From Sipunculus nudus (Eukaryota; Annelida; Sipuncula; Golfingiida; Sipunculidae), in NCBI GenBank assembly GCA_026874595.1, contig CM049309.1:48964079-49028078 (forward strand): a DNA stretch of 64,000 nucleotides. The letters are read 5' to 3'. A program made the translations under genes and the position numbers. The notes beneath the pieces were generated by a model. It did not search any database. It was given only the letters and a program-made list of their open reading frames with translations, and was not told the origin of the DNA. The first letter of the stretch is position 1. Each line of letters opens with the position of its first letter. This document shows, piece after piece, positions 3,125-56,615 of the stretch.

Positions 3125-3354
3125 TCTTTGGTATAACGGATTATATAAATGACATCAAATAATATATATATTCTATTTTACTCATCTGTAAATTTACAAT
3201 ATATTTTTTATAAAAATTGATTTTTGTAATTAAAATATGGAGAGATGGAGAGATTCCCATATATATATCGGCTTCCAGTATTATCATCTGTAAATAAATT
3301 ATATATTATTATAAATATTATAAATTTCTATTCGTGATTAAACATCATCACTGT

Positions 3355-3520
3355 TGTTACGGGGTAACAAAAAAGTGGACCGAACTGTCTCGCTAGTGAA
3401 GCATGCTTTTCTGGCAAATTTTCTAGCGAAGTGATTGGAACGCCGGACATGTGCGCCACCGACATGGGTTCGAATCCCGGATCGGCTCATTTATCCCCTG
3501 AGCAATTTGTATTCGTAATT
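3355..3520 (+). repeat. 5' LTR of TRIM copy A
   Basis: Begins TGTTACGGGG and ends in degraded form GTAATT. It contains a 12-bp local insertion near 3414-3426 compared with the right LTR. Its A-box-like motif at 3424-3434 has one substitution at the end; its B-box at 3467-3477 (GGTTCGAATCC) is perfect. Confidence 0.8.
3424..3477 (+). promoter_or_regulatory. tRNA-type Pol III promoter boxes (A and B) in the 5' LTR
   Basis: TAGCGAAGTGA at 3424 resembles the A-box consensus TRGYNNARNGG with the last base changed. GGTTCGAATCC at 3467 matches the B-box. The boxes start 43 bp apart, as in an intronless tRNA gene. The flanking bases do not form an acceptor stem, so this is a promoter-like relic of a tRNA rather than a tRNA gene. 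Activity is inference. Confidence 0.6.
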
Positions 3521-3523
3521 AAA

Positions 3524-3536
3524 TGGGGGCTCGTCC
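3524..3536 (+). other. Primer-binding site complementary to tRNA-Pro 3' end
   Basis: TGGGGGCTCGTCC begins with TGG, complementary to CCA, and continues with the complement of the tRNA-Pro acceptor stem. The same tRNA-Pro primer site is known from gammaretroviruses. It lies 3 bases after the LTR, the normal position. The equivalent site in copy B has one change. Confidence 0.8.
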
Positions 3537-3647
3537 AAAACGTGTGCCTGGGGATGGTGGTTAGAAATTAGAAACAATTACCGTCACCTAGTTCGCCAAA
3601 AGTGTGACTCCTGGGATAGTCTTGTTCTGATAGCAGAGCACCCCCCT

Positions 3648-3659
3648 AAAGAGGGGGTG
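3648..3659 (+). other. Polypurine tract of TRIM copy A
   Basis: AAAGAGGGGGTG, purine-rich except for one T, ends immediately before the right LTR. In this copy it also forms the 3' arm of a 7-bp hairpin (3639-3645 with 3653-3659), a feature absent from copy B. Confidence 0.7.
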
Positions 3660-3815
3660 TGTTACGGGGTGACATAAAAGCTGACCAAACTGTCTCCCTA
3701 GTGAAGCATGCTTTTCTAGCGAAGCGGTTGGAACGACGGACATGTGCGCCACCGACATGGATTCGAATCCCGCATCGGCCCAGTATTTTCCCCTGAGCAA
3801 TTTGTCTTCGTAACA
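3660..3815 (+). repeat. 3' LTR of TRIM copy A, with A- and B-boxes
   Basis: A 156-bp repeat running TGTTACGGGG to GTAACA. It holds a perfect A-box, TAGCGAAGCGG (3717-3727), and a near-perfect B-box, GATTCGAATCC (3760-3770), with starts 43 bp apart. It is collinear with the solo LTR at 24519-24675 over its whole length. Confidence 0.8.
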
Positions 3816-4256
3816 ATGTACATCTTTGCTGCTTTTTATTTGGGACTGTGAATGGTTTATGGTAGCAAAGACTACCACGCTAATTGGTTCATATTATTCA
3901 TAAAGGTTCATATTATTCCCTTACCTGGACTGTTAAAATACGAAACTGTAAAGTGCACTACTGGCAGTATTCTATGATTTTAAAGATATTTTTATACAAA
4001 AAAAAGTTTTGTTATATAAAAATTAAGATTAAAAAAACACCAAGAAAACCCTTGAAATGCGACGTTTTCTGTAGAAATACCTATAAATTCCCTTATATAC
4101 CAAAAGCATCAGTTATCCGAACGGACTTCCACAGTGCAGTTAAGGGCGACTCAGTATAACTGCGGGAACAATTGTGTTAACGAGGGGTTTCCCGGGGATT
4201 AAATCAGACCTGTTGGCCAAGCGTCTCTGAGAATGGCCTCGGGCCGCTAGGTCCCC
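3816..4256. other. No recognisable feature
   Basis: AT-rich DNA up to about 4140, then a transition into GC-rich sequence leading to the minisatellite. The open frames here have no family resemblance. Confidence 0.4.
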
Positions 4257-10250: not shown

Positions 10251-11059
10251 TGAGTTTATGAAGGTCAGATATGTGATTGGGTCCCTTAAACGTAATATGT
10301 GATATATTGTGATAAAACCTCTGCGTGTCAGAACCACCGTAAAAATGAGCACTCGCAGAAGACACAGGGACTGTCGTTAAAACAAGCAAAAGACACAGGC
10401 ATTTAGGTTCTTTTTAATCAGCATGGCTGTTTGATTAACACGACTGCACTCACGACTTGTACGGCTTGCAGTCTTTGATAATAGAGATCAATAGAGAAAT
10501 CCTTTGCCGGAGGGTATGTTATTACTTGTGTTCAAAGACTTACGACAAAAAGACCAAGCTTTTGTTACATCAAACGGGTAGCAAGGGCAGATGGCTTAAT
10601 TGCTGGTTAAGGTTTCGGTTTCACTCATTTAACATCCCACACGAGAAAAGTACTGATTTACAACCCTTTTAACATCATGGGCTATTACAACACCATTATC
10701 CTGACCGCCGGGGTTCCTCACCTAGGCAAAACCACATGACTGCACTAATACGCCCAAGAATGAAATCAGCCGCACCAGAGTCTGGCGTTAAGATTATTGC
10801 ACCGGCAGTTCTTCAAACAATGTAAATAATCAGAAAGTTTTGTATATCTTCTATAAGGCAACTGTACTCAGAATGAACTTATGGAGACATAAAAAACTTT
10901 TTTTTTACCTGGGGTAACAGTCATTTGATTATTATTTAATTAAAAAACCTGAGATAATCCCTTATTATGATGTTCGCAATTTTCTTAATACTTCTGGTTA
11001 TAATTTGTTAAAAAATGGATAACTGTACAGGTATATGACGAACTCTGTGGCTTCAACCG

Positions 11060-11272
11060 GTTTATGTGGCTCAGGGTTATAGCACAGGACTCGAATCCTG
11101 GAGATTGTTAGTTCGAATCTCAGCAGAGGCAGTGAGTTTTTTTTTTCACTGTCGGCCCCCAATCTGCCGGCCTAATGAGGAGACTATGCCCAACAGAAGT
11201 ATTTCACTCACAAACGAGGTAGATATATACACTCAGGAACCGCAGGAGTGGTATACCGAGCCTGGTTGACAC
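11060..11272 (+). mobile_element. tRNA-derived SINE, copy 1
   Basis: The head GTGGCTCAGGGTTATAGC (11066) resembles a tRNA D-arm with an A-box, and AGTTCGAATCTC (about 11110) is a B-box. A non-tRNA body follows with TTTTCACTGTCGGCCCCC and ends in GCCTGGTTGAC near 11271. The copy at 20046-20309 on the other strand shares the head, the body motif and the end, which shows that it is a dispersed family. The anticodon arm pairs (CAGGA with TCCTG) but the loop is one base short, so this is not a working tRNA gene. Confidence 0.75.
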
Positions 11273-20045: not shown

Positions 20046-20309
20046 ATATCCTAACGTCAACCAGGCCCGGTGACTACTGCACCTGCGGGCCCTGGTTGTG
20101 TAATGGTGCCAATTGCTGGGTCATACAACCTATGAACCCCCTAAAGCAGCACTCGTTTTTGAGTGAGACACGGCCTTCCCATAAAGCCTGCAGAGCGCTG
20201 AACCTGGGTTGGGGCCGACCGTGGAAAATCTCATCGCCTCGGTTGACATTCTAACTCACAATCTCCCGGCATTGTGTACTGGGCTCCACCCAATGAGCCA
20301 CAGAGGCCG
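20046..20309 (-). mobile_element. tRNA-derived SINE, copy 2
   Basis: Read on the minus strand, the head GGCCTCTGTGGCTCATTGGG holds an A-box, and GAGTTAGAATGTC is a decayed B-box. The body motif TTTTCCACGGTCGGCCCC and the end GGCCTGGTTGAC match copy 1 at 11.06 kb. Its head lies only about 28 bp from the left LTR of TRIM copy B. Scattered mismatches and length differences from copy 1 show an old insertion. Confidence 0.75.
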
Positions 20310-20336
20310 GTCAGGACATTTCGGGAATGGGCCTAT

Positions 20337-20713
20337 TGTAACGTGGTGACATAAACGCGGACCGAACTGTCTCGTTAGTGAAGCTTGCTTTGTTAGCGAA
20401 GCGGTTGGTATGCCGGACTTGTGTGCCACCGACTTGGGATCGGTCAAATGTTTTTCTCGAACAATTTGTCTTCGTAACAAAATGGGGGCTCGCCCAACGT
20501 GACGGAAAACTTTGTGGCCCAGGGAATAAGCTCACCAAAGTGTGACTCCTGGGACAGTCAAGTTCTGATAGCAGAACGTTCTTAAGAGGAGGTGTGTTAC
20601 GGGGTGACATAAAAGCGGACCGAACTGTCTTGCTAGTGAAGCATGCGTTTCTAGCGAAGCGGCTGGTACGCCGGACTTGTCCGCCACCGACATGGGTTCG
20701 AATCCCTGATCCC
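20337..20713 (+). mobile_element. TRIM-type miniature LTR retrotransposon, copy B (3' LTR truncated)
   Basis: The left LTR at 20337-20479 runs TGTAACGTGG to GTAACA. Three A residues follow, then the primer site TGGGGGCTCGCCC (20483-20495), one base off tRNA-Pro. The internal region shares GTGTGACTCCTGGGA and GTTCTGATAGCAGA with copy A. The purine tract AAGAGGAGGTG (20584-20594) abuts the right LTR, which starts TGTTACGGGG at 20595 and breaks off after AATCCCTGATCCCGGG near 20713. The left LTR has lost the B-box through a deletion; the right one has a perfect A-box (20652-20662) and B-box (20695-20705). Finding LTR, primer site and purine tract in the same order as copy A makes the TRIM assignment firm. 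Confidence 0.8.
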
Positions 20714-21683
20714 GGGTGGTTTATTTTGTATGAAAGGTTTTAGGGATTATCATTAGAAAATTGACGTCATATATCAGAATGGTAGCCTTTAACTGGCAAT
20801 TAATTACCCGTCATTCAACGCGTCTCTCCTGTACCGGTGTATAGAGAATCCACGGCTGCGATTCAGCAACGGAATCGATGCCATTTACATATATAAGACC
20901 CCGGGTCAATTCACTCTGTACCACTGTCAGTGTTATCAGGTGCCATTTTTTATTCACCAGGGAAAAATGCGGTAAAGATTTGTTGGCTAGTCTTTATCAA
21001 AATTTAAATAGTTTTCGCAGTCTGGACTGGTACAGAAGAGCAAATTTTGGGGGGGGTTTTTTTGTTTATTTTTATTTACATAAACGTTAAGTACTTGGTT
21101 AATTTCCATGGGTGACAGGAGTCACTGTATTAATGACCAGCACATCAGAGTTTGTTACATTTGAAGTTACATGAGTTTTTTCATTATGTTAGGTGAGTTA
21201 CATTTTAACTTCTGTTGTTTCATTATTCGACACCAGTAAACTGCGGGTGGTCTGCCCATCTGGTGCAAAAATGTGAACATCAGTAATCACTGGTGTTAAT
21301 TACTGATTGTTTGATCACTCTAAATATGAAGCAAAACCATTGCAGCCTTTTCATATATTAAATTTAAAGAGGACTTATTCTATCTTAATTTATTCTTATA
21401 CCTTCATTATCTTATTCTCTTAATATGTGGTTCTCTGTAATATCTTTCACAATCCAGTGTAAACAGCTCATGAGTAGAACAATAAAGCTAGATTATGTTT
21501 GAAAGATATAATGAATATTTTCCAAAATAGCCCTGCTGTCATTATTTTAAATAAAACCATGGTTGGTAGATAAAAAATAAAGTAAAATTAACAATGATGT
21601 AAACATTATATATCTTTTTCATATTCAGGAGATGATTAGCACATCCGTCTGAATCATTTCTTCTGAGATCTTAATTTCGGATT

Positions 21684-24480
21684 AAAAGGGACATAATCAG
21701 GAGCAATATTATGCCTTTTCTTTAACACTATCAGTTCAGTTTTGCTTTTCGTTTCTCAGCAAACCCATCCCAGCACACAGTATCATACGCTCTGAACACA
21801 GCGCGTTACCTCCCGGCACAGTGACCTTCCACTCACACGCTGTGGGAAATAGCAGGATTTTTAAGGTTTGGCAACACTAAGTCAGTTTGCGCCAGATAAA
21901 TTAAAATCCGATTGGCTCTGCGTTTTAAAAAAATCTGCAGAACTGGTAGATGAAATCTGATTGGCCTAGCGCGCGTGTACAGACATAGTTATGCGGGGCA
22001 AGCTCGTGCGGCGCGCAATACAGGAAACAGCAGGCAGCGGGGGATAACTGACCTCAGACAAGTCAGTATAAAGACTGTGTTGAAAGCTGACGATTGCATC
22101 GTGTGTATTCCAATGGGCGTGAAAAGAGTCAGTGTTACCAAGCGTTTTCCACAGCAGTTTAAAGTGAACGGTACCTCGAAGACCATCCGTTTCTGCTAGC
22201 GATACCTGCAATGTGTTTGGTTAAATATAACGCAGGGGGAATTCCAAAGAGACAGCACCGCCTAGTGGCCAAACCTTACCGGCAAGCGCGATTTAATGCA
22301 GCGGTTAGTGTAGCGAATAGTTGAGCGTAGCGTTGCCGCTGCTGATGGAGCGTAACAGTATCAGTACCCCGCAGACGGCTGCTTAACACATTGTTATTGC
22401 TCTGCGTGTTGGTAACCACAGTCCAGTTTGTTTGTTTATCATAAAAAGACCGCGTGAAAAGAGGTCTGATTGTGAGCCATCCAGTGTTTTATCCAGCGGG
22501 AACATGTATTACATTTTTTTGGACCATAGCATCTATGATGCTCATGTATTTCATTTTAGTTATATATATTTTAAACTTATCTATTAATTCGTTGTGAGAT
22601 AAAAAAAAACATATCTCCAGTATGCTTGGTGATATCTTTAATACTTGTTATTCCTGCTCTGTACATAGCGTTATTGTAGACAATGGTGTTGTGTACTTTT
22701 ATATGAGAATTAAAGAATATTAGTTCTGATAAAATTTCATTACATATATTAACATCTTGAAAGTTATATGTACCCCAAATCTCAAATACTTCTTTCAAGA
22801 AAGTATGATATGTGTTCTTGAAGTAACTGAAATATTGTGATTTTAGATTGCATTTTAATATGAGGGGACCTATTTTTTTAAGCTGCACATTAACTATTTG
22901 TCCCCATCCATTATCAATTGGACCAGAAATAAATCTTTTGATCCATCGAAGTTTAAAAGCTTCCATTTTAGATTTTAAATGAATCATATCTAGCCCACCT
23001 TTTTTTTTAATTTCTGCAATTAAGGTTGCTCTCTTTTTTTTCCTGCTTACCCCAGATAAACTTAAACAACAGACATTCAGTTTCTTTTATATAAGTGAAC
23101 GGAGGATTTTGGAAGATTTGTAAAGCATAAGTCAACTGTGATAAAAAATTGTGAGATTTTATAATTGTTATTTTACCTGATAGTGTATTAGATCTTGTTG
23201 ACCATATATTTAAAACTGATTTTATTTTACTCAAAATTTTCTTGTAATGATATCTGTCGTTATCCGCCAGTCTGGATGTATGTAAATACCTCAAACTTTA
23301 ATGGGGTCTGTACACCATTTCAATCCGAAATTGCGGATACTCTGATATGTATTTTTGTTATCTTCTATTACTGGCTTTACTTACAGTTTTGTCTTAATTA
23401 ACCCTAAGACCTAATATTTTCTGAAAGTGTTTAAATGTTGAGATTGCTTCTTTTATTGAGTGTTAACCTCCAGTCAGAAACAGAACAGTGTCTTCAGCAT
23501 ATTGGATTACCTTATGTTTCCTGCCTGCAACATTTATTCCTGTTATTTGGGGTTATTACGTATTTTAATTGCTAATATTTTTCAAGCTAAAACAAATAGT
23601 TATGGTGATAGGGGACACCCTTGTCTGACATCACAAGTTATAGGAAAATAATCTGTGGCCCAGCCTCTGTTTATTATGCAACTGTTAATATAGGTGAAAA
23701 GTATGTTTATCCATTTTTTTTATATATTTCCAAAGTTAAATAAATCCCAACTATTTTGAATATATGTCCATTCTAAGGAAACGAAAGCTTTTTCAAAATC
23801 AATTGATATAAGGTAACTTTCAATATTATGTTTTTGAATTGGCAAATAAATCTGTAATTTTGAAAATATTTTCTCCAATATATCTGTTTTAAATAAACCC
23901 GGAAATGTTAAATTGTCTAATACATTCTTAAGTCTATTAGCTAGAGTTTTAGAAAAAAATCTTGTAGTCAGTATTTAACATTGAGAGAGGACGACAATCC
24001 TTTAAAAGTAATGCATCCTTGCCTTTCTTTGGAATTAAGCAGAGAATCCCTTGTCGTAAAATGGATGGTAAGTTGCCTATTTTGAAAGAATGTTTTATTG
24101 CATTTATATAATGTTCTTTTATTTCTTCAGAGAAGACTGTAAAATTCTACCGGCAGACCATTATGTCTAGGTGTTTTATCTAGCTGAAGAGATGTTAGTG
24201 TTGCAAATATTTGTGAACGTGTAAATTCTCGATCACAATCTTGTTTATCATCTGTAGACAATGTTTTGATAATATTTCTAGTTTTATAAAGTTTTTTTCT
24301 AAACTTTTCAACAGTGCCTATTGATGTATATAGAGGCTGGTAGAATCGGCAGTTAAAGATTGATTTTAAAGAGTTAAAAGCTATTTTTCGTGTTAATTCA
24401 ACATGCTTTATTGTTGACTGGTAACCTTTAAGTATAAGATGGTGGATGACAGTATTTAGTTGTAATTATCTATGGTCAGT
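21684..24480 (-). pseudogene. L1/Tx1-like LINE ORF2 remnant (reverse transcriptase), 5' truncated
   Basis: On the minus strand, from high to low coordinates, the frames show typical non-LTR reverse transcriptase blocks. These are LQLDKT(P)...GLPVEFY (24190-24140); LIPKKGKDALLLKDCRPLS (around 24040-23985); LISIDFEKAF (23808-23783); VRQGCPLSP (23630-23607); QYAEDTVLFL (23501-23490); STRSNTLSGKITIIKS; FIWGK; and MEAFKLRWIKRFISGP. The C-terminal part reads on to about 22513. The catalytic YADD box is YAED here. The endonuclease domain is absent, so the copy is truncated at its 5' end. Frameshifts and stops occur throughout. From 22522 to 21684 the sequence matches a second copy at 51.4 kb and is taken as the end of ORF2 plus 3' UTR; it is split by an insertion at 21786-22354. 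The enzyme would copy LINE RNA at a nicked target, but this copy is dead. Confidence 0.85.
21786..22354. mobile_element. 569-bp inserted element with 9-bp TSD and TACGCTC inverted ends
   Basis: ACAGTATCA occurs at 21777-21785 and 22355-22363, directly flanking a segment that begins TACGCTC and ends GAGCGTA. The second LINE copy near 51.5 kb is collinear across the same point (CACACAGT, CCAGTACC) but lacks the segment, so it is a natural empty site. A 9-bp duplication is typical of Mutator-like elements; Merlin (8-9 bp) is an alternative. The inverted ends are short (7 bp perfect, then weak similarity). The body is GC- and CpG-rich for this window, contains two ATTGGC (CCAAT-type) motifs near 21910 and 21960, and encodes no transposase. 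Confidence 0.8.
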
Positions 24481-24518
24481 CATAGATAAAACTAAGTGAC
24501 AGGAAACCTAGATTAAAC

Positions 24519-24675
24519 TGTTACTAATGCAAATTTGCTCAGGGGAAAACATTGGACCGATCCAGGTTTCGAACCCATGTTGGTTCCGCACAAGTCCGGC
24601 GTACCAACCGTTTCGCTAGAAAAGCAAGCTTCACCAGCGAGACAGTTCGGTCCGCTGATATGTCAACCCGTAACA
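24519..24675 (-). repeat. Solo LTR of the TRIM family
   Basis: Read on the minus strand it runs from TGTTACGGGTTGACAT to TAGTAACA, a complete 157-bp LTR with no internal region beside it. The A-box TAGCGAAACGG lies at 24618-24608 and the B-box GGTTCGAAACC at 24575-24565, 43 bp apart. Solo LTRs arise by recombination between the two LTRs of an element. No flanking target duplication is evident (TAAAC and ATACA). It lies about 40 bp from the 5' truncation point of the LINE. Confidence 0.8.
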
Positions 24676-25420
24676 ATACACACAGCCCTATGTCTAACCT
24701 ACTGCTGTGGGTCATACCCTTTGGCTAGTGGGCATTGATTGTACCACCTGCTACTTTGTGGCCAGCTTACAGATGACATCTTTAATTTTTCATCATTACT
24801 GTATATACTGATACATAAGGAAAATCCTGATGAAGAAGCTAATTAATGGTTTGAATATGCCGAACAATATTAAACCGCCTACCCTGATATTACGACAACG
24901 ATATTTTAAATCAAAGAAGGAACAATTAAATTGTGTGTATATTATAAAGTAAAATCACAAAATGTGTCCTGCAACAAGCAAATAAGGAAAAGAATCTATC
25001 GGATTCTGGTAATGTTTTCCAATGTATGTGAAATCTCTTTCTAAATAAATTTCCTTTACAATAGAATCTAATGCATTAAATTAAAACATATTCCCATATA
25101 CATTTCGTATTTTTACTGGGGTGTTCACAAAACGACCACCAAAAAAAACCAAAGGAGAAAGGATTTCAACTGTGGTGGTAACACTCTATTTTTAACATTG
25201 TTATTACAAGATTTTCTGCTCTTGTAATCACTTATATTTTGCTTCTACCCATGGAAAGCAAGGCAGACCTGTTCCATATACAGTGATGTGTGATATGCTG
25301 ACCATTGCAGTCAGGAACAGATTCGAGGTTCCATTAAGAATTCACTATTTTTCCCAGGATTTATAACCTGTCGTTAAGACATAACAGGGAATCTCTGAGG
25401 CTCATAACGAGATTTAACCA
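24676..25420. other. No recognisable feature
   Basis: AT-rich sequence between the solo LTR and the next SINE. Nothing to support. Confidence 0.4.
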
Positions 25421-25422
25421 TT

Positions 25423-25512
25423 ATGTCATTGATGCACCGGAGGGTTTCGAACCAGGGACCTTCAGCTCTGAAGTCCAACGCCTTAACCACTAGGCTACGT
25501 CCAACCTGGCGT
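25423..25512 (-). mobile_element. SINE head of a second tRNA-derived family
   Basis: The minus strand reads GTAGCCTAGTGGTTAAGGCG (a perfect A-box, TAGCCTAGTGG) and, 44 bp from its start, GGTTCGAAACC (a perfect B-box). That is the exact spacing of a tRNA gene. The acceptor stem is not paired and no CCA-type end follows, so I call it a SINE or tRNA pseudogene. The A-box half was copied again at 25981-26011 by the tandem duplication described next; the B-box half was not. Confidence 0.75.
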
Positions 25513-26467
25513 GATCTATCTTCACGCCTGACCTCAAACGGAGCACCCATTCACCTTCGTCTGATGACAAATGGTTTAAAAGTGTTAATATATACGTCGC
25601 ATGTCCAAGGTGTTTTATATACTGTGTATTCGTGATCGAGAGGAGGAATTTCGTATGATAAAAGAAGTTAATTTACCTTCTATAGTGACCGAGAGACATT
25701 TAGAAGACCGTGTTTGGCAGAAGAGGAAGGTATGTTAGCACTAGCCGTAATGATGGTCAGCGTTCATTTCCCTGTAAGACAAAAGAAGTTTGCAAATATG
25801 AGGAACTACTAGAATTATTCAGAAATACAGTTCCTCTTGGACATAAGAAATTCACTTATATGAGTACCTGATGGACTAATTGAGAAATTTTACTTCTTGA
25901 ATAATTGAGAAATACAATTCCTCTTGGATCAAAGAAGTTTGCATATATGAGTAATGACTTAAAAGTGTTAGTCCAAAAAAGTCCAACGCCTTAACCACTA
26001 GGCTACGTCCCACCTGGCGTGATCTATCTTCACGCCTGACCTCAAACGGAGCACCCATTCACCTTCGTCTGATGACAAATGGTTTAAAAGTGTTAATATA
26101 TACGTCGCATGTCCAAGGTGTTTTATATACTGTGTATTCGTGATCGAGAGGAGGAATTTCGTATGATAAAAGAAGTTAATTTACCTTCTATAGTGACCGA
26201 GAGACATTTAGAAGACCGTGTTTGGCAGAAGAGGAAGGTATGTTAGCACTAGCCGTAATGATCGTCAGCGTTCATTTCCCTGTGAGACAAAAGAAGTTTG
26301 CAAATATGAGGAACTACTAGAATTATTCAGAAATACAGTTCCTCTTGGACATAAGAAATTCACTTATATGAGTACCTGATGGACTAATTGAGAAATTTTA
26401 CTTCTTGAATAATTGAGAAATACAATTCCTCTTGGATCAAAGAAGTTTGCATATATGAGTAATGACT
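25473..26467. repeat. Recent tandem duplication, 508-bp period
   Basis: Segment 25473-25959 recurs at 25981-26467 with about three substitutions in 487 bp (for example ATGATGGTC versus ATGATCGTC). The junction at 25960-25980 (AGTCCAAAAAAGTCCAACG) contains a short microhomology, AGTCCAA. The duplication starts inside the tRNA-like SINE head and includes the 7-bp hairpin GGCGTGA/TCACGCC at 25510 and 26018. Confidence 0.9.
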
Positions 26468-27420
26468 GAGAAGAGATCCTACGGGAATGATTGAGATATA
26501 CTATTTCTGTTTGACAAAAGAAAGTGCATATATGAGTAAATAATTGAATTATTTAGCAGAGTTCCTACTGGAATGATTGAGAAATACAACTCCTGTTTGA
26601 AAAAAGAAGTCGGCACACGTGAGGTCCGATTAGAGTGATATCGAAGATGAATTTGTTGAACAAAAGGGGTTTGCGCCTGTATCTGCTGGAATAATAGAGG
26701 GTTGTGCAACGTGGAACAGCTCTTTTGTTTATATAATGGATAGACTGATTTCCTTTTGAGTAAAAAGTGGCGTATGTGTGATCTGCGTGAATCTTGCAGA
26801 TAGAGTGAACTTTCAACGGAACGTCCTGTTGTTCAAAGAATGTTTGACTTTATGAGAACCGACTTGAACGAACAAACGAAACGTTGACTCCAGCAAGCCT
26901 GGGCACGCACCGGCTGTCTCACCAACGACAGTTCAGAAAAAAAAGTTCAGAAGAATTAGTTCCCAGGTATGAGCCTCCAGATATTGTAGAAACAAAGAGA
27001 AGCGAAGTCTGGGTATATATTTGTAGATGCCACACCAAGGAGAGCGTAGAGGTATCCAGGACGCCTTCAAAGATTATCTCCAGAACATCCAGCACTGAGG
27101 TCAAGACGAGAAGTCAGACGAACTAGCAGAACAGCAGCAACCACGTCCACTCTGTGATGAACGCCTGAACACCCTACGCACCTGCAAACAGTTTGGCACG
27201 AGTCTAGAACCTTTATTTTGAATGAGAACCTTCCGGAGTCTTCAGGCAAATGGGTTTTAAGTTGGATAAAAGAGATTAAGTACATACTTGCGTGACCAAG
27301 GCAATTTCTCATTGAACAAAAGAGGCATGTGAGTACAATGTGAATAACAATGGGGCTAAACCAGAGGATGGATATTTCGTTTGACAAATGAAGCACCAGC
27401 TGGACACGGGCCCAGAATTT
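25770..27420. repeat. Degenerate tandem repeat, 60-90 bp units
   Basis: A theme close to GACAAAAGAAGTTTGCATATATGAGTA, followed by an ATTGAGAAATACAATTCCTCTT-like part, recurs irregularly at about 25783, 25838, 25928, 26286, 26440, 26510, 26600, 26660, 26840 and 27310. Units become more diverged to the right. The 508-bp duplication copied several of them at once. Short open frames inside (such as 26884-27126) show no family motif. Confidence 0.6.
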
Positions 27421-27549: not shown

Positions 27550-28262
27550 ATAAAACTATGGCTTGAATATTTAATTTTCGTACAGTTCTATGCAGAATGT
27601 AATGAGGTGAATATTACCCCTCCAAGCAGTCCGAAATAACCACCAGGGCACCCTTTCTTTCATTGGCTACAGATTATAGGATGATTGAATTACATCTATA
27701 TGCCTTTTTTAGATTATGCTACCTACATATTATTTTAAAGCCGCCTGCCATAATAGCTAGACCACAGCGAGCTGAACGTTTGTTTCATTTTGCGGGATTA
27801 TGCCCGATTAAGCTGAATAATTAATAATTTTAATATTTCCCCATTAGGTGCCCCTATTTCTTTTGTGCTGCAAGGTCCTCCATGCCTGTGACCCTTTTTC
27901 AGGAGGCGCGTCGGGGATTTTTACTGGCCTGTTAAGACCGTGGCCAGAGCGCATGTCCTGCCCGAAAGGCATTTCCGTGCAATACGCGGTCACGCGGGTT
28001 CAATATAAACCCATTGATCCCACATATCCATTGTTATAAAACTATGGCTTGAATATTTTATTTTCGTACAGTTCTATACAGAGTGTAATGAGGTTGATAT
28101 GACCCCTCCAAGCAGTCCCAAATAAGCACTGGGGACCTTTCTTTCATTGGCTACAGATTATAAAATTATTGATCTACATCTATATGCCTTTTTTAGATTA
28201 TGCTACCTACATATTATTTTAAAGCCGCCTGCCCTAATAGCTAGACCACAGTGAGCTGAACG
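27550..28262. repeat. Spaced direct duplication, 486-bp offset
   Basis: Segments 27550-27778 and 28036-28262 align end to end (ATAAAACTATGGCTTGAATA ... GAGCTGAACG) with roughly 10% differences and small indels. The 257 bp between them is unique. It is either an older partial tandem duplication or a direct-repeat-flanked element; the termini lack TG...CA, so LTRs are unlikely. Confidence 0.85.
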
Positions 28263-33235: not shown

Positions 33236-35060
33236 ATGGAGAGATCACAGAAAGTAAAACTATTCTGAAAGTCCGAGAAATCGCATAGAATGATTCTAAC
33301 CTGAGAGAGAAATCACAGAGAGTGAGACTAACCTGAGAGAAAAATTACAGAGAGTGAGACTAACCTGAAAGAGAAATCGCAAAGAGTGACTACCCTGAGA
33401 AAATTGCAGAGAGTGAGACGAACCTGAGAGAGAAATCGAAGATAGTGAGACTAACCTGAGAGAGAAATCGCAGAGAGTGAGACTAACCTGAGAGAGAAAT
33501 CGCGAAAGTGAGACTCCCTGAGAAAAATTGCAGAGAGTGAGACTAACCTGAGAGAGAAATTGCAGAGAGTGAGACTAACCTGAGAGAGAAATGGAAAAGT
33601 GAGACTACCCTTAGAGAGAAATCGCAAAGAGTGACTACCCTGAGAGAAATTGCAGAGTGAGACGAACCTGAGAGAGAAATCGAAGATAGTGAGACTAACC
33701 TGAGAGAGAAATCGCAGAGTGAGACTAACCTGAGAGAGAAATCGCGAAAGTGAGACTCCCTGAGAAAGAAATCGCAAAGTGAGACTTACCTGAGAGAGAA
33801 ATCGCGAAAGTGAGACTAACCTGAAAGAGAAATCGCAAAGTGAGACTACCCTGAGAGAAACTGCAGAGAGTGAGACTTACCTGAGAGAGAAATCGCAAAG
33901 TGAGACAACCCTGAGAGAAATTGCAGAGAGTGAGACTAACCTGAGAGAGAAATCGAAAAGTGAGACTACCCTTAGAGAGAAATCGCAGAGAGTGAGACTA
34001 ACCTGAGAGAGATATCGCAGAGTGAGACTACCCTTAGAGAGAAATCGCAGAGAGTGAGACTAACCTGAAAGAGAAATCGCAAAGAGAGACTACCCTGAGA
34101 GAAATTGCAGAGAGTGAGACTAACCTGAGAGAGAAATGGAAAAGTGAGACTACCCTTAGAGAGAAATCGCAGAGAGAGAGACTAACCTGAAAGAGAAATC
34201 GCAAAGTGAGACTACCCTGAGAGAAATTGTAGAGAGTGAGCCTAACCTGAGAGAGAAATCGAAAAGTGAGACTACCCTTAGAGAGAAATCGCAGAGAGTG
34301 AGACTAACCTGAAAGAGAAATCGCAAAGAGAGACTACCCTGAGAGAAATTGCAGAGAGTGAGACTAACCTGAGAGAGAAATCGCAGAGTGAGACTAACCT
34401 GAGAGAGAAATCGCGAAAGTGAGACTACCCTTAGAGAGAAATCGCAGAGAGTGAGACTAACCTGAAAGAGAAATCGCAAAGTGAGACTACCCTGAGAGAA
34501 ATTGCAGAGAGTGAGACTAAGCTGAGGGAGAAATCGAAAAGTGAGACTACCCTTAGAGAGAAATCGCAGAGAGTGAGACTAACCTGAAAGAGAAATCGCA
34601 AAGAGAGACTACCCTGAGAGAAATTGCAGAGAGTGAGACTAACCTGAGAGAGAAATCGCAAAGGGAGACTACCCTGAGAGAAATTGCAGAGAGTGAGACT
34701 AGCCTGAGAGAGAATTCGCAAAGAGAGACTATCCTGAGAGAAATTGCAAAGATTGAGACTAACCTGAGAGAGAAATCAAAGAGAGTGAGACTAACCTGAA
34801 TGAGAAATCGAAGAGAGTGAGCCTTACCCGAGAGAGAAATCGCAGAGATTGAGACTAACCTCAGAGAAAAATCGCGAAAGTGAGACTAACCTGAGACAGA
34901 ATTTGCAGAGAGTGAGACTCATATAAAGAGAAATCGCAGAGTGTGAGACTAACCTGAAACACCGAGAGATCGCATAGAGTTAAACTAACCTGAGAAAGAA
35001 ATCGCAGAGAGTGAAACTGTTCTAAGACATCATATAGAGTGTCAGTAATCAACGGAGGCA
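33236..35060. repeat. Purine-rich satellite, about 31-bp monomer in a 122-bp higher-order repeat
   Basis: Roughly 58 copies of a monomer like GAGAGAAATCGCAGAGAGTGAGACTAACCT. A diagnostic variant, CCCTTAGAGAGAAATCG, occurs at 33608, 33969, 34031, 34153, 34275, 34428 and 34550. Three of the spacings are exactly 122 bp; others are 62 or 153 bp, i.e. plus or minus whole monomers. So four monomer types alternate in a higher-order unit, as in satellites that evolve by unequal exchange. The plus strand is strongly purine-biased over 1.8 kb. Minus-strand open frames (about 70-108 codons of FLSQVSLTL-type repeats) are translations of the array. Confidence 0.95.
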
Positions 35061-56171: not shown

Positions 56172-56615
56172 CCGGCTGACCAACTTTTCACGGTTTTCTC
56201 GTATCGTCCCGGCTGACCAACTTTTCACGGTTTTCTCGTATCGTCCCGGCTGACCAACTTTTCACGGTTTTCTCGTATCGTCCCGGCTGACCAACTTTTC
56301 ACGGTTTTCTCGTATCGTCCCGGCTGACCAACTTTTCACGGTTTTCTCGTATCGTCCCGGCTGACCAACTTTTCACGGTTTTCTCGTATCGTCCCGGCTG
56401 ACCAACTTTTCACGGTTTTCTCGTATCGTCCCGGCTGACCAACTTTTCACGGTTTTCTCGTATCGTCCCGGCTGACCAACTTTTCACGGTTTTCTCGTAT
56501 CGTCCCGGCTGACCAACTTTTCACGGTTTTCTCGTATCGTCCCGGCTGACCAACTTTTCACGGTTTTCTCGTATCGTCTCGGCTGACCAACTTTTGACGG
56601 TATTCTTATTTCGCC
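56172..56615. repeat. Homogeneous 37-bp minisatellite, 11 identical units plus 1 diverged
   Basis: The unit starts CCGGCTGACCAACTTTTCAC and contains GGTTTTCTCGTATCGTC. Copies begin every 37 bp from 56172 to 56542 and appear identical; a twelfth at 56579 has several changes. The reverse strand has open frames reading the unit in all three phases, each soon closed by a stop. Confidence 0.95.

Follow-up and report, generated by a model that had tools for sequence, protein, structure and literature searches.

TRIMs with tRNA-derived sequence in their LTRs were described by Kojima in 2024 under the name Helenus (TRIMp3) (PMC10886601). In that account, Helenus elements are hosted by fungi, six animal phyla and one lycophyte, are 311-1263 bp long, carry a primer site (PBS) and a polypurine tract (PPT), produce 4-bp duplications in animals and leave solo LTRs. 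Bivalve families take tRNA-Lys, His, Ile, Pro, Glu or Ser as their primer, and in Crassostrea gigas a Gypsy element is primed by tRNA-Pro (PMC10886601). The tRNA-derived part of the LTR was detected by Censor comparison with tRNAs and SINE2 elements, and Pol III transcription was proposed, being stated as not validated for Helenus, with an additional argument drawn from Cassandra (PMC10886601). Cassandra is a plant TRIM that likewise bears a Pol III-type promoter within its LTR, derived from 5S rRNA and not of the tRNA type seen in the element reported here (PMC10886601). Ajax, a nemertean TRIM of 421-434 bp, also has a small-RNA promoter in the LTR and differs from the present element in its 5S-derived LTR, 5-bp duplications and tRNA-Leu primer site (PMC10886601). 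Another animal TRIM, biv-TRIM of bivalves, shares the terminal repeats, short interior and PPT; unlike the element here, it has repeats of 202-218 bp, an interior of 77-80 bp and no canonical PBS identified (Satovic 2019, PMC6934838). Judged by titles and the beginnings of abstracts, the literature search returned no further relevant work on such elements.

The window analysed here is a 64-kb stretch of the Sipunculus nudus genome, in which a complete element of 461 bp was found at 3355-3815. We consider, at a probability of roughly 90%, that it belongs to an old non-autonomous Helenus-type family of LTR retrotransposons, that is, a TRIM with a captured tRNA-derived promoter in its LTR; this promoter probably came from a SINE. 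Paired LTRs, a primer site of apparent tRNA-Pro type, a PPT, the lack of a recognisable protein and boxes at tRNA-like spacing can all be read from the DNA itself. The features are as follows.

3355..3520, plus strand: 5' LTR of copy 1, 166 bp, with a 12-bp insertion before the A-box
3424..3434, plus strand: A-box of the copy 1 5' LTR, TAGCGAAGTGA, two mismatches relative to TAGCGAAGCGG
3467..3477, plus strand: B-box of the copy 1 5' LTR, GGTTCGAATCC, 43 bp from the A-box start
3521..3659, plus strand: internal region of copy 1, non-coding, 139 bp
3524..3536, plus strand: PBS of copy 1, TGGGGGCTCGTCC, tRNA-Pro type, beginning 3 nt past the 5' LTR
3648..3659, plus strand: PPT of copy 1, AAAGAGGGGGTG, abutting the 3' LTR
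3660..3815, plus strand: 3' LTR of copy 1, 156 bp
3717..3727, plus strand: A-box of the copy 1 3' LTR, TAGCGAAGCGG
3760..3770, plus strand: B-box of the copy 1 3' LTR, GATTCGAATCC, one mismatch relative to GGTTCGAATCC
20337..20479, plus strand: 5' LTR of copy 2, 143 bp, A-box at 20394, B-box lost through a 12-bp deletion
20483..20495, plus strand: PBS of copy 2, TGGGGGCTCGCCC, one mismatch relative to TGGGGGCTCGTCC
20584..20594, plus strand: PPT of copy 2, AAGAGGAGGTG, abutting the 3' LTR
20595 to about 20706-20712, plus strand: 3' LTR of copy 2, truncated directly after the B-box, A-box at 20652, B-box at 20695
24519..24675, minus strand: solo LTR, 157 bp, A-box at 24618, B-box at 24575 (GGTTCGAAACC), flanks GTAT/GTTT

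A BLAST search of the parts of copy 1 against the 64-kb window placed the LTR family at five positions in three places, whose flanks are mutually different. The five LTRs can be aligned over their length except for one insertion, one deletion and one truncation; the 12 bp inserted in the copy 1 5' LTR, which adjoin the A-box on its upstream side, resemble a tandem duplication. Paired LTRs, PBS and PPT occur together at two of the three places (one with the truncated 3' LTR), and the third is in solo-LTR form. Copy 2 extends from 20337 to about 20712 with an interior of 115 bp, and the interiors of both copies agree with the non-coding 115-139 bp given in the first-pass annotation. The paired LTRs bounded by TGTTAC and GTAACA that it had reported are equally borne out by the alignment and the termini: TGTTAC opens four of the five LTRs (TGTAAC the other), and GTAACA closes three of the four that keep their right end (GTAATT the fourth). 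The copies are decayed, as the LTRs of copy 1 are 82.5% identical (17.5% different over 166 columns, gaps counted) and those of copy 2 differ by 14.2% over 106 bp. A possible tRNA-type SINE fragment, recognised by eye, adjoins copy 2 at 20236-20311 (minus strand) and has a 74% relative at 11056-11130.

The primer site reported earlier as tRNA-Pro was recovered in both two-LTR copies, where TGGGGGCTCG begins three bases past the 5' LTR (3524 and 20483). Set against the complement of the tRNA-Pro 3' end, 13 of the first 13 nt agree in copy 1 and 12 in copy 2; over 18 nt, 14 and 13 agree, respectively. The PBS 10-mer occurs twice in the real window versus 0.025 times expected per window over 200 dinucleotide shuffles. 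The polypurine tract, which had also been claimed, lies immediately 5' of the 3' LTR in both copies having two LTRs. Between PBS and PPT, the best-kept interior part is a 39-bp stretch with 92% identity (3599-3637 in copy 1, 20537-20575 in copy 2), which may, as a guess, represent a packaging or helper-recognition signal. Flanking bases could be compared in copy 1 and the solo LTR, the right end of copy 2 being lost. With a 4-bp length, chosen with the published Helenus value in mind, three of four bases agree in each (CTGT/ATGT and GTAT/GTTT) and neither pair is perfect; a 5-bp reading gives agreement at only one of five bases in each. Imperfect target duplications are to be expected given the divergence of the LTR pairs (14.2% and 17.5%), and the flanks would fit degenerate 4-bp duplications as weak evidence.

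Within the LTRs, the A-box TAGCGAAGCGG is exact in three of five (3717, 20394 and 20652), has one mismatch in the solo LTR (24618, minus strand) and two in the copy 1 5' LTR (3424). The four A-boxes listed in the first-pass annotation (3424, 3717, 20652 and 24618) are thus all present, and a fifth, at 20394, had been missed. The B-box GGTTCGAATCC is exact in two LTRs (3467 and 20695), carries one mismatch in two (3760 and, on the minus strand, 24575) and is absent from the 5' LTR of copy 2, where the loss by deletion described earlier proved to be of 12 bp. As had been stated, the boxes stand 43 bp apart, a start-to-start spacing found in all four LTRs that keep both. Windows shuffled by dinucleotide (200 replicates) contained on average 0.1 relaxed A/B pairs, versus five in the real one: three in LTRs (3717, 20652 and 24618) and two, overlapping each other, in a SINE-like head at 25441-25497 (minus strand). 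Chance pairing of the boxes was rejected, as relaxed pairs far exceed this expectation. The relaxed pattern misses two LTRs because the A-box at 3424 is decayed and the LTR with the A-box at 20394 has no B-box. A stricter A/B pattern, whose A-box is one base longer than the A-box here, had zero matches in the window.

Whether a tRNA gene lies behind these boxes was addressed with tRNA models. ARAGORN (bacterial setting) reported no tRNA gene in the window, Rfam at gathering scores gave no match, and Rfam up to E 10 over 3300-3900 and 20200-24760 gave no tRNA-family match. The lax Rfam search returned six matches at chance level, one of them to a tmRNA fragment of 13 nt that covers the first B-box (3466-3478, E 3.4). 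A functional tRNA gene was rejected on the ARAGORN and Rfam tRNA-family results, from which it follows that the boxes represent a promoter-like relic of tRNA-type sequence and not a tRNA.

It may also be asked whether the whole unit is a SINE duplicated in a tandem-like manner that mimics an LTR element, a reading that we regard as very improbable. The tRNA-like part of the LTR does align with the SINE-like head at 25441-25497, at scores reached by 17, 31, 24 and 0 of 1000 single-base shuffles in four LTRs; one of these four alignments covers only the 13-bp B-box, and the fifth LTR was omitted because it has no B-box. However, the LTRs run well past the tRNA-like part to sharp common ends, PBS and PPT abut them in both two-LTR copies, and the third place is bounded by identical LTR termini, as expected of a solo LTR. 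A pure SINE was rejected, as LTRs, PBS and PPT are all in place. The SINE-like head, whose A and B boxes are spaced by 44 bp, lies partly inside a 495-bp unit duplicated in tandem at 99% identity (25471-25965 and 25979-26473).

The coding capacity of the element is consistent with a non-autonomous TRIM. The longest stop-to-stop frame within copy 1 has 75 codons; that within copy 2 has 125 codons on the minus strand and is part of a 142-aa frame spanning both LTRs. None of the four frames of 77-142 aa that overlap the two copies gave a Pfam match above the curated cut-off: two had no match, and two had one match each at E 0.02-0.03. Among the 119 window frames of at least 70 aa, 18 were scanned against Pfam with three sub-cut-off matches: a weak one to reverse transcriptase, at E 0.003, and two others in the range E 0.03-0.08. 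Four patterns searched in IMG/VR and one searched in prokaryote genome contigs had zero matches to the element, and the first ten letters of the LTR, searched as text in the literature, returned seven papers, of which, by title, none deals with transposons and one deals with lentivirus LTRs.

Other repeats are present in the same window. An apparent LINE reverse transcriptase remnant, assigned to LINEs by eye, occupies 22577-24465 (minus strand), with a sub-cut-off RVT_1 match at 23720-23974 (E 0.003). A 229-bp direct repeat with 92% identity, its units 486 bp apart (27550-27778 and 28036-28262), is possibly another terminal-repeat element. A long tandem array of imperfect units lies at 33239-35018, and another, with a 37-bp period and 95-99% self-identity, at 56172-56606. 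The dispersed pairs 21685-21745/51398-51458 (92%) and 22355-22518/51496-51665 (81%) possibly belong to one family.

Judged by the published description of the class, the present element is very probably a Helenus-type TRIM. It shares with Helenus the short non-coding LTR design, tRNA-type A and B boxes in the LTR, a tRNA-complementary PBS, whose tRNA-Pro type is among those given for bivalve families, a PPT and a solo LTR (PMC10886601). Its 461 bp lie within the Helenus length range and under 1000 bp; it has a pair of LTRs and lacks protein genes, the PBS follows the 5' LTR and the PPT precedes the 3' LTR. Both tRNA-type boxes are found in four of five LTRs, though with no match to a tRNA model. 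A difference resides in box A, which reads TAGCG..CGG here and TRGCY in most Helenus (PMC10886601). The anatomy reported by the first-pass annotation, a TRIM with a tRNA-type A/B pair in its LTR, was therefore confirmed in its paired LTRs, PBS, PPT and boxes, and its analogy with Cassandra is right and was also drawn by Kojima (PMC10886601). Its statement that no equivalent had been described does not stand, as the 2024 article on Helenus had already set out the class and this line of argument (PMC10886601). Since the class was already published, the element is one further Helenus member and not a discovery.

As for its life cycle, Pol III would begin transcription upstream of the A-box of the 5' LTR; a Gypsy-type element would provide Gag, reverse transcriptase and integrase in trans; the first strand would be primed by tRNA-Pro and the second by the purine tract; and integration would generate the 4-bp duplication. 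Recombination between the two LTRs would leave the solo form.

The first of these steps, the use of the LTR boxes by Pol III, is plausible. Divergence in the box columns was 10.3% (19 of 184 comparisons) versus 15.8% (184 of 1167) in the other LTR columns, and reached 13.2% upstream of the tRNA-like stretch and 22.0% downstream. In at least 8% of draws (8.3% of 5000), two windows picked at random did as well in conservation as the boxes, which is not significant, and the true share is above 8.3% because overlapping draws were skipped yet kept in the denominator. Greater conservation of the boxes than of the remaining LTR is thus only weakly suggested. This result leaves room for an ordinary Pol II TRIM driven by a TATA-like box of the LTR, in which the tRNA-like stretch, whether captured or arisen by chance, would be a relic that does not act as a promoter. 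Such a reading, which we hold to be unlikely, draws on the TATA-like CATAAAAG at LTR position 14, present in two of five LTRs with variants in two more, and on T4 runs inside the LTR that would impede Pol III. One such run lies at LTR position 53 in three of five LTRs, and another near position 127 in three of the four LTRs that keep that stretch, the deletion-bearing LTR having a T5 at 115. On the other hand, A and B boxes stand 43 bp apart in four of five LTRs with relaxed pairs far above chance, AATAAA and ATTAAA are absent from all five LTRs and both interiors, and Helenus families described from six animal phyla have the same layout (PMC10886601). The lack of these poly(A) signals favours Pol III; Pol II is compatible with the T4 run further downstream and with the TATA-like box.

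Returning to Pol III transcription of the Helenus-type TRIM, the polymerase would tend to halt within the 5' LTR at the T4 near position 127, so that the transcript would need read-through. The LTR has a compact dual layout: the TATA-like CATAAAAG begins 44 bp upstream of the A-box, which is itself immediately preceded by a T4 run. In tRNA genes in general, Pol III starts about 10-18 bp upstream of the A-box. A start at this distance in the 5' LTR, combined with a stop at the pre-A-box T4 of the 3' LTR, would, given read-through at about 127, yield an RNA with a terminal repeat of about 10-17 nt, a scheme that we put forward as doubtful. The predicted repeat resembles the 18-bp overlap reported for Cassandra.

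These findings add one Helenus family, or another view of a known one, represented by three decayed loci in 64 kb, and bear on the question raised by Kojima of whether Pol III really uses LTR-embedded promoters. The T4 runs and TATA-like elements give concrete predictions for the RNA ends. If the scheme of start and stop around the A-box is true, it would explain as a general rule the way in which TRIMs of the tRNA type yield a reverse-transcribable transcript.
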